Shown here piece after piece: positions 63,422 through 64,000 of a stretch of DNA of 64,000 nt. A model generated the notes under the pieces. That model made no database searches. It had not been told where the DNA came from and saw nothing but the letters and a program-made list of their open reading frames with translations. The DNA is from Brevundimonas sp. (GTDB lineage: Bacteria; Pseudomonadota; Alphaproteobacteria; Caulobacterales; Caulobacteraceae), in NCBI RefSeq assembly GCF_016742135.1, contig NZ_JACVCG010000006.1, forward strand, positions 51,525 to 115,524, given 5' to 3'. Position 1 is the first letter of the stretch. Every line of letters begins with the position of its first letter. Position numbers and translations under genes: made by a program.

Positions 63422-63444
63422 CCTTCTCCCCCCGTGGGAGAAGG
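63422..63444 (+). terminator. GC-rich hairpin after rpoD
   Basis: CCTTCTCCC and GGGAGAAGG form an exact 9-bp stem with a 5-nt loop, starting 10 nt after the rpoD stop. There is no T-tract, so it may end transcription weakly or protect the mRNA 3' end. It adjoins the repeat element that follows. Confidence 0.55.
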
Positions 63445-63459
63445 TGTCAGGCGGAGCGG

Positions 63460-63588
63460 CTGTGGTCGCCCCCTCCACCGCTACGCGGTCCCCCTCCCCC
63501 GCCTTGCGGGGGAGGAGCCGCTGCTTGATCCTCCTCCATAGCGGAGCGTATGGGGGAGGGGGACCGGCGAAGCCGGTGGAGGGGGCGG
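63460..63588. repeat. Composite palindromic repeat element, copy 1
   Basis: About 129 bp built of nested inverted repeats. The outer left arm (63467-63500) and outer right arm (63552-63587) are complementary over 14 and 15 bp on either side of a short variable core (CTACG against GCGAAGC). Inside lie two smaller hairpins: an exact 10-bp stem CCTCCCCCGC/GCGGGGGAGG with a CTT loop (63493-63515), and an 11-bp near-perfect stem CCTCCTCCATA/TATGGGGGAGG (about 63530-63560). The first 37 bp recur exactly at 63964-64000. The end of the right arm contains the ribosome binding site of the DUF559 gene. Confidence 0.85.
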
Positions 63589-63954
63589 ATGCGCGCACCA
63601 ATCCTCACTACAAAACGGGCCAGGGCAGGCCGTCAAAAAATGACATTGCCCGAGGTTTTGCTCTGGAACGATCTGAGACGCGGTCGTCTCGGGGGATTGC
63701 GTTTCCGTCGCCAGCATCCGGTCGGCCCCTATATTCTGGACTTTTATCTGCCGTCCCACTGTCTCGCCATCGAGGTCGATGGACGGATCCATGAGCATCC
63801 CGATCAGGCCGGACATGACCTGCATCGGGATAACTGGCTGGCCGAACAGGGTATCCGGGTGATGCGCTTTGCGGCACGACATGTGCTGAATGACGAGGCC
63901 CGGGACGGTATTCTCGCCGCGATCCTTGAGGTGGCGAAGGGTCAAGAGGGTTAG
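63589..63954 (+). CDS. DUF559-family endonuclease-like protein
   Basis: A 121-residue protein of the DUF559 family, related to Vsr-like and other PD-(D/E)xK nucleases. The candidate catalytic set is Glu22 (LPEVLLW), Asp51 (YILDFYLP) and Glu62-x-Asp64 (IEVDG), followed by His68. The basic N-terminus (KRARAGRQK) may bind nucleic acid. GGAGG in the repeat arm lies 6 nt before ATG 63589; ATG 63640 is an alternative start at the domain edge. It fills the space between two copies of the palindromic repeat, ending 9 bp before the second. The function of DUF559 proteins is not established; mobility or repair is inference. Confidence 0.88.
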   Translation: MRAPILTTKRARAGRQKMTLPEVLLWNDLRRGRLGGLRFRRQHPVGPYILDFYLPSHCLAIEVDGRIHEHPDQAGHDLHRDNWLAEQGIRVMRFAARHVLNDEARDGILAAILEVAKGQEG

Positions 63955-63963
63955 GCGTTCTGC

Positions 63964-64000
63964 CTGTGGTCGCCCCCTCCACCGCTACGCGGTCCCCCTC
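63964..64000. repeat. Palindromic repeat element, copy 2 (cut by the window end)
   Basis: 37 bp identical to 63460-63496, in the same orientation, running into the window edge. The sequence starts CTGTGGTCGCCCCCTCCACC and continues with the ACCGCTACGCGGT mini-stem. The two copies are 504 bp apart and bracket the DUF559 gene. Confidence 0.9.

Follow-up and report, generated by a model that had tools for sequence, protein, structure and literature searches.

Among the closest described counterparts of the element analyzed here is the pairing of RAYT (TnpA_REP) genes with repetitive extragenic palindromic (REP) sequences. According to the available portions of the respective reports, a single nuclease gene in this system has a copy of a dispersed palindromic repeat on either side, the two being in inverted orientation (PMC2817692), whereas solo inverted pairs (REPINs) are found elsewhere, and co-evolution of the repeat and the protein has been suggested (PMC3116915). 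We encountered a similar arrangement at the end of a 64,000-nucleotide stretch of a Brevundimonas sp. genome (assembly GCF_016742135.1, contig NZ_JACVCG010000006.1; hereinafter, the window), where a gene for a nuclease-like protein of the DUF559 (PF04480) family follows rpoD and is enclosed by repeat arms. The resemblance to RAYT-carrying units had been pointed out in a preliminary description of this DNA, and it holds for the organization but not for the components: the DUF559 enzyme has a predicted Vsr/homing-type fold and not that of a HUH tyrosine transposase, and the arms start with TCCTCC or CCTTCTCC, include a third strand and, by eye, lack the GTAG/GTGG head of REP sequences. A search of the same genome, which did not cover other transposases, gave no match to PF01797 (Y1_Tnp), and a RAYT acting in trans in this genome is thus ruled out. 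The DUF559 gene and its arms have the features of a unit that ends in inverted repeats and has given rise to short, dispersed derivatives; because of their constant linkage, the match between arm type and nuclease clade, the presence or absence of the unit as a block and the predicted fold, we consider this unit probably mobile, with the nuclease as the likely agent that spreads the repeats.

The arms resemble the BoxC/PIT/TM repeats, which were reportedly described as intrastrand-triplex repeats by Hoyne in 2000. For Escherichia coli, the available text of Holder 2015 (PMC4666352) gives 23 copies of this motif, triplex formation in vitro and 5 pairs, each of which combines a type A with a type B motif; it reports no mobility gene and no activity capable of moving the repeats, whereas a partner gene is found here. 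Common to both kinds of repeat are a core of a C/T hairpin with a mirrored G-rich tail and the pairing of unlike arms; the Brevundimonas arms differ in having a second hairpin between the first hairpin and the third strand. The palindromes of the window are of this intrastrand-triplex kind rather than the ordinary REP palindromes initially suspected. On the protein side, the predicted fold resembles those of the homing endonuclease I-Bth0305I (3r3p), an enzyme of the EDxHD type, and of Vsr (1vsr, 1cw0), from which the window gene differs in being flanked by its own repeats. A DUF559 protein that has been studied in vivo, VsrA of Caulobacter crescentus (CCNA_02930), is described as the partner of the methylase ScmA, and the accessible text mentions no repeats (PMC12907096). 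Among titles and the beginnings of abstracts, in a search whose coverage mostly excludes subscription papers and bioRxiv, none linked DUF559 or Vsr-like nucleases to such repeats.

The two features that first drew attention to the window gene proved exact: a 129-bp nested palindrome (63460-63588) precedes it, and a 37-bp direct copy follows, with bases 63460-63496 identical to 63964-64000 and the second copy beginning 9 bases beyond the end of the stop codon (63954). The palindrome consists of two arms of opposite orientation, R' and R (Table 1). The gene probably starts not at 63550 but at the ATG at 63589, which two bases separate from arm R, and because the arm ends this close to the start codon, its G-run could act as a Shine-Dalgarno sequence. 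Direct copies do bracket the gene, as proposed, but they are secondary: the functional flanks are the inverted arms, in the order R-gene-R', and what was described as a direct 37-bp copy belongs to a second R'. At the DUF559 loci of relatives, no arrangement is as common as the inverted pair, which makes the inverted arm R, and not the direct copy, the relevant partner of the right-hand arm. The dominance of inverted pairs across the loci surveyed rules out direct repeats as the functional pair; the high direct-repeat scores at some loci are owing to the presence of a second arm. The window end coincides with the end of assembly contig C6, so the right-hand copy is incomplete. Contig C6 probably joins contig C2, because C2 opens with a 24-bp overlapping piece of the R' arm, and the next gene on C2 looks, by eye, like the rpoD-downstream gene of relatives.

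We surveyed DUF559 loci with a script that counted as positive a triplex arm within 230 bp of the gene or an inverted-repeat score of at least 30 between the flanks. An arm or inverted repeat was found at 190 of the 202 loci with readable flanks (3 loci with short flanks are omitted, and weak matches, mostly pieces of long proteins, are outside the survey) versus 22 of 615 placements made at random within these loci. Positives were 63/67 in Brevundimonas (68 of 222 matches, the best-scoring ones and those from genomes with few contigs; 2 contig-edge loci omitted), 27/30 in the class and 27/27 in the phylum (the best match from each of the top 30 genomes, 3 phylum loci being already in the class set and 12 of the 27 lying outside the class), and 73/78 in the named set (taken from the 80 best of 575 loci). 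Two-sided arms were detected at 40 genus, 13 class, 13 phylum and 34 named loci versus 2 of 615 control placements. In a gene-anchored control, the inverted-repeat score of 30 was reached by 32 of 49 DUF559 genes but only 1 of 100 ORFs (open reading frames) from the same loci, and a score of 40 by 26/49 and 0/100, respectively; these control genes confirm that the bracketing of the window gene is not due to chance. Some species may recur in more than one of the named, genus and viral sets, which are thus not independent of one another, and family counts based on the PF04480 search may be slightly low, given that a control search missed E. coli despite the presence of ycjD in MG1655.

The window's own genome encodes 6 DUF559 proteins and yields 91 alignments to the palindrome, with strands counted separately; by eye, inverted arms enclose 5 of the 6 genes, the remaining one being located beside another repeat. 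DUF559 is present in 57 of the 61 Brevundimonas genomes searched. Beyond chromosomes, all 28 viral-contig DUF559 loci have arms or an inverted repeat, as do, at a score of at least 30, 7 of 11 plasmid loci (4/4 Deinococcus, Pseudanabaena, Picosynechococcus PCC 7003 and Azospirillum); in Picosynechococcus PCC 7002 and two Synechocystis plasmid loci, arms are visible by eye only. These 11 loci were chosen from 43 plasmid matches as the non-proteobacterial ones plus one from Azospirillum, with one giant fused protein omitted. The genomic surroundings of some of these units deserve mention. One viral contig (L422, IMGVR_UViG_2928531327_000003, 1-2336) carries an armed DUF559 unit with a large terminase gene (PF17289, PF03237) on one side and a portal gene (PF04860) on the other, in a cluster like that of a gene transfer agent or prophage. 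On plasmids of three Deinococcus species (L399, L401, L402), the unit occupies different gaps of one 4-hydroxyphenylacetate (hpa) gene cluster, and on two plasmids of Synechocystis sp. B12 (L395, L396), a DUF559 gene with one arm, by eye, lies inside or beside DUF1156/PglX methylase genes in an insertion-like manner.

All arms follow one plan: a C/T-rich hairpin, often a second hairpin, and then a G-rich tail, the base order of which is the mirror image of the first hairpin's purine strand, as in CCCTCTCCC..GGGAGAGGG..GGGTGAGGG, CCTTCTCCC..GGGAGAAGG..GGATGAGGG, and CCTCCCCC..GGGGGAGG..GGAGGGGG from different families. In the mirrored tail, A or T stands opposite A, a requirement of the antiparallel purine triplex. 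Near 125 DUF559 genes, we counted 172 non-redundant hairpins, 143 of them with a perfect 9/9 mirror tail, whereas hairpins shuffled among tails gave a mean of 45.6 perfect mirrors (maximum 61 in 300 shuffles); outside the genus, the count is 64/79 versus a shuffled mean of 21.1 (maximum 31). Among 127 asymmetric stems, 108 have a perfect mirror and 10 a direct copy, which rules out the third strand being a simple direct repeat. Judged by their base order, the arms carry the signature of an intrastrand purine triplex of the BoxC/PIT/TM kind. Solo pairs, sampled as 63 pairs from nine genomes, join arms of unlike class, defined by the second hairpin under a three-class rule drawn up after inspection of the data, in 60 of 63 cases (shuffled within genome, 37.8, maximum 51); under a simpler AC/non-AC rule, 43 of 63 are mixed (shuffled within genome, 24.4, maximum 35), the G044 pairs being without the AC type. 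Because solo pairs join unlike arms, the pair, rather than the single arm, is likely the unit. Unlike ends are also a feature of IS200/IS605 elements. In the window's own genome, a gene that looks pseudopilin-like by eye (L043, C3:36300-36984) is found between two solo arm pairs, the last bases of which supply a Shine-Dalgarno-like GGGGAGG beside the ATG.

Arm type agrees between the two sides of a gene and along the nuclease tree. Left and right arms are of the same type at 40 of the 41 genus loci with both called (shuffled mean 15.9, maximum 26 in 2000). On a nuclease tree of 48 of the 68 rows (16 same-site relatives and 4 rows without a called arm omitted), arm type, as given by crude labels under which the window arm is called C although close to A, requires 9 changes where the minimum possible is 4 (shuffled mean 23.9, with 0 of 200 shuffles as low), whereas host genome requires 28. 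Arm type is thus much more closely tied to the nuclease tree than host genome is; such agreement would also be expected from a linked unit simply staying together and is not proof of recognition. In a survey of 190 genomes of the class, strong DUF559 matches occur in 26 of the 29 genomes with at least 5 motifs versus 21 of the 161 with fewer (p 4e-16, with genomes treated as independent and unmatched for size and base composition, and 17 genomes with weak matches only, E 1.5e-12 or worse, counted as lacking DUF559). Excluding the own genus and G116, which also matched the reversed-pattern control, the former count is 23/26. The repeats are not equally spread among genomes with and without the gene, and the outcomes named at the outset as refuting a partnership of repeat and nuclease did not appear. 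Within Brevundimonas, type-B motifs are missing in 2 of the 4 genomes without DUF559 versus 1 of the 57 with it.

We traced several cases in which units or arm pairs are present or absent as blocks. In the window's own genome (G000), a 488-bp sister unit is embedded in the sequence GGCAAG[TATTCCTCC...GGAGGAATG]CTAACCCGTC, where G016 has GGCAAG-A-CTAGCCCGTC, with the arms and the gene both missing; the sister unit is thus present in G000 and absent as a block in G016. The same site is occupied in G050 and G037, contains a lone hairpin in G004, in which the next gene is missing too, and holds diverged or longer DNA in other relatives; a second search for empty sites (L042) found unclean junctions only. 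As for a solo R-spacer-R' pair of the own genome (C7), the entire block is lacking in 17 of 29 relatives, with the site contiguous in 7 and occupied by longer other DNA in 5, and in the empty sites (for example, G004, G016, G010, G003, G025 and G006), the stop codon overlaps or almost overlaps the start codon. Insertion of an inverted doublet as a block is a REPIN-like trait, seen in the one solo pair tested. In another case, at a site presumably between glyS and ppdK (names assigned by eye), two different units with 38-40% protein identity and different arms alternate between flanks that are 89-97% identical. Finally, of 28 pairs of nucleases from different genomes with an identity of at least 79%, 7 share neither flank (for example, G057/G042, 85%, and G044/G046, 83%), pointing to location at different sites, although flanks that have diverged might have escaped detection.

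For the window's own unit, no clean empty allele was found at the rpoD site of relatives, where the intergenic DNA differs widely. We fetched 30 rpoD loci and read 25 by eye over about 430 bases (5 minus-strand loci were left out): the gap contains DUF559 in 2 (G000, G004), a gene-less arm pair in 2 (G041, G018) and neither in 21; in G034, DUF559 is located beside rpoD, judging by coordinates. The truncated type-B arm that precedes the composite palindrome comprises, by eye, the same 36 bases as the arm beside an antisense DUF559 gene 3' of rpoD in G004 and may be the leftover of an earlier element at the same site. In G003 and G017, the gap after rpoD contains another inverted repeat, with TTTCGTCAT..ATGACGAAA ends.

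Table 1. Features of the window (single positions and ranges without a contig name) and related elements of the same Brevundimonas sp. genome, G000
Feature	Position	Strand	Remarks
rpoD stop	63411		Element train starts 3' of rpoD
Truncated type-B arm, CCTTCTCCC...GGGAGAAGG	63422..63457	+	36 bp; precedes composite palindrome
Arm R', left copy	63468..63516	-	Outer arm of composite palindrome; called triplex arm by script
Arm R	63529..63586	+	Hairpin CCTCCTCCAT..ATGGGGGAGG, second hairpin, third-strand tail GGTGGAGGGGGC
DUF559 (PF04480) nuclease-like gene	63589..63954	+	121 aa; profile match, predicted fold, invariant residues
Arm R', right copy	63972..64000	-	First 29 bases only; cut at end of contig C6 (window end)
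Sister unit	C3:584136-584623		488 bp
Solo R-spacer-R' pair	C7:220627-220761		

The identification of the window protein as DUF559, already made in the preliminary description, is backed by the profile match (Pfam PF04480, E 2.4e-27 for the longer frame from 63550, with no other family above the cut-off), by the predicted fold and by conserved acidic residues. A protein search returned 890 relatives at E <= 1e-3, and D51, E62, D64 and H68 are invariant in a 44-row alignment. The AlphaFold2 model (pLDDT 88.4, pTM 0.82) has as its top Foldseek hit among solved structures 3hrl, annotated as endonuclease-like and also the sole good sequence match, along with the catalytic domain of I-Bth0305I (E 4.9e-4), Toxoplasma mitoribosome chains (1e-3) and, weakly, Vsr (1vsr, 0.033; 1cw0, 0.093). 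From family and fold, the protein is predicted to cut DNA. Pro/Ser tails of the APST or PPPP type, a loose motif counted without a control, occur within the last 25 residues in 66 of the 120 relatives listed, including the window protein, which is what would be expected if the reading frame runs into the arm. With regard to a role in defense, PADLOC gave partial matches only (DpdF, 1.2e-5; mREase_II, 0.012).

A possible worn form of the same association is found in E. coli, where 168 bp separate ycjD (1351407-1351760), a gene annotated as DUF559, from published motif no. 9 (1351239-1351204) on its downstream side, and the 3' end of ycjD reads through the arm-like CACCCTCTCCC. With 18 motif sites and some 4300 genes, we estimate the chance of a named gene bordering a motif at about 1%.

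Taken with the class-wide co-occurrence, the tracking of the nuclease tree by arm type and the block presence or absence, the counts at DUF559 loci strongly support the partnership of repeat and nuclease that had been proposed for the window; that the nuclease spreads the repeats is what we infer from it. Under this interpretation, the arms would fold while the strand is single, during replication or repair; the Vsr-fold protein is predicted to recognize the folded arms and to nick or cut DNA at the arm base; and repair or copying would insert the unit at other intergenic sites. Solo pairs would then be passengers similar to MITEs (miniature inverted-repeat transposable elements), moved in trans. 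In its mode of action, such a system would parallel RAYT/REP, although neither the nuclease nor the repeats are related to those of the latter. We lean, with somewhat less assurance than for the mobility of the unit itself, towards a broader proposal, namely, that these units represent a new class of mobile elements in which a Vsr/homing-type nuclease mobilizes DNA with intrastrand-triplex ends, that the class spans at least three phyla and has a worn form at ycjD, and that it is the source of the BoxC/PIT/TM repeats.

Several observations weigh against mobilization by the nuclease. The best within-genome identity is 62% (50 pairs), and because near-identical copies are lacking, the gene-bearing unit does not visibly multiply; RAYTs, too, are single-copy, with no two like proteins per genome according to the available text (PMC3116915). 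No consistent target-site duplication was found at the two sites compared (the sister unit and one solo pair), with a possible TGA repeat at the solo pair that may only keep the stop and start codons; the similarity between GGGGGAGGCAAG of the target and the arm end GGGGGAGGAATG causes a 12-base overlap of the two alignments to G016, so the ends of the sister unit are uncertain by about that much. Some genomes carry motifs without the gene: G216, 95% complete, has 26 triplex motifs and no DUF559 match, for which recent loss, a missed gene or another mover are candidate explanations; G071 (77% complete) has 9 motifs and no strong match; G203 has 25 motifs and a weak match only; G041 keeps 17 type-B motifs without the gene, as does G025 (70% complete) with 6. 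Conversely, the survey script found neither an arm nor an inverted repeat at 12 of 202 DUF559 loci, one Thermoactinomyces gene among the 11 plasmid loci has no arms, and in Deinococcus units, the arms are reversed in orientation. The right arm of the same locus is the best scorer for the left arm in only 9/28 genus, 11/30 class and 11/27 phylum loci (with offsets wrong for a few contig-edge minus-strand loci), because arms of one type are common to several loci. For the E. coli motif, the in vivo data in the available text of Holder 2015 (PMC4666352) do not support stable triplex formation. Nuclease activity and mobilization are conclusions that we infer, and cutting, binding and movement stand as predictions.

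An alternative that we consider unlikely is that the DUF559 gene is a passive cassette with no role in movement, carried by homologous recombination between repeats that would treat any captured gene alike. The repeats are abundant, and the two units with different arms that alternate at the glyS-ppdK site could be products of recombination; however, other genes are seldom flanked in this manner, as the gene-anchored ORFs and the two-sided random placements indicate, and partial-genome counts point to a much higher frequency of flanking inverted arms for DUF559 than for other intergenic genes of short length. Moreover, arm type tracks the nuclease clade, and the G016 empty site keeps no arm, although repeats should persist there had resident copies recombined. 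It also seems improbable that the protein is a caretaker, that is, a structure-specific repair nuclease that resolves triplex or hairpin arms, with the adjoining arms autoregulatory and the repeats spread by other means. The Vsr-like predicted fold is compatible with such a role, and so are the induction of VsrA with the DNA-damage response and its requirement for the SOS response upon loss of ScmA, as given in the available text (PMC12907096); but a caretaker leaves unexplained the arms on both sides, the match of their types and the presence or absence of arms and gene as a block, and no Y1 transposase, the one kind of transposase searched for, was found in the own genome.

The arms are, by eye, GC-rich hairpins often situated between a stop codon and the next start, as would befit strong bidirectional terminators or insulators that gather around short foreign genes. 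This explanation appears to us very improbable: termination needs neither the mirrored third strand nor the agreement of type on the two sides, and earlier work cited in Holder 2015, in the text available, found no promoter or terminator activity of the E. coli motif (PMC4666352).

If mobilization by the linked nuclease is borne out, these units would represent another, independent answer to the problem for which REP repeats rely on RAYTs, and the origin of the BoxC/PIT/TM repeats, open since the 1990s, would be explained. The pairing of nuclease and triplex repeat, found in proteobacteria, cyanobacteria and Deinococcus and beside ycjD in E. coli, suggests a likely function for a widespread nuclease annotated as a domain of unknown function and offers a natural enzyme family that is likely to read folded DNA. 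With a linked nuclease family that has its own repeat types, the spread of the BoxC/PIT/TM repeats becomes directly testable.
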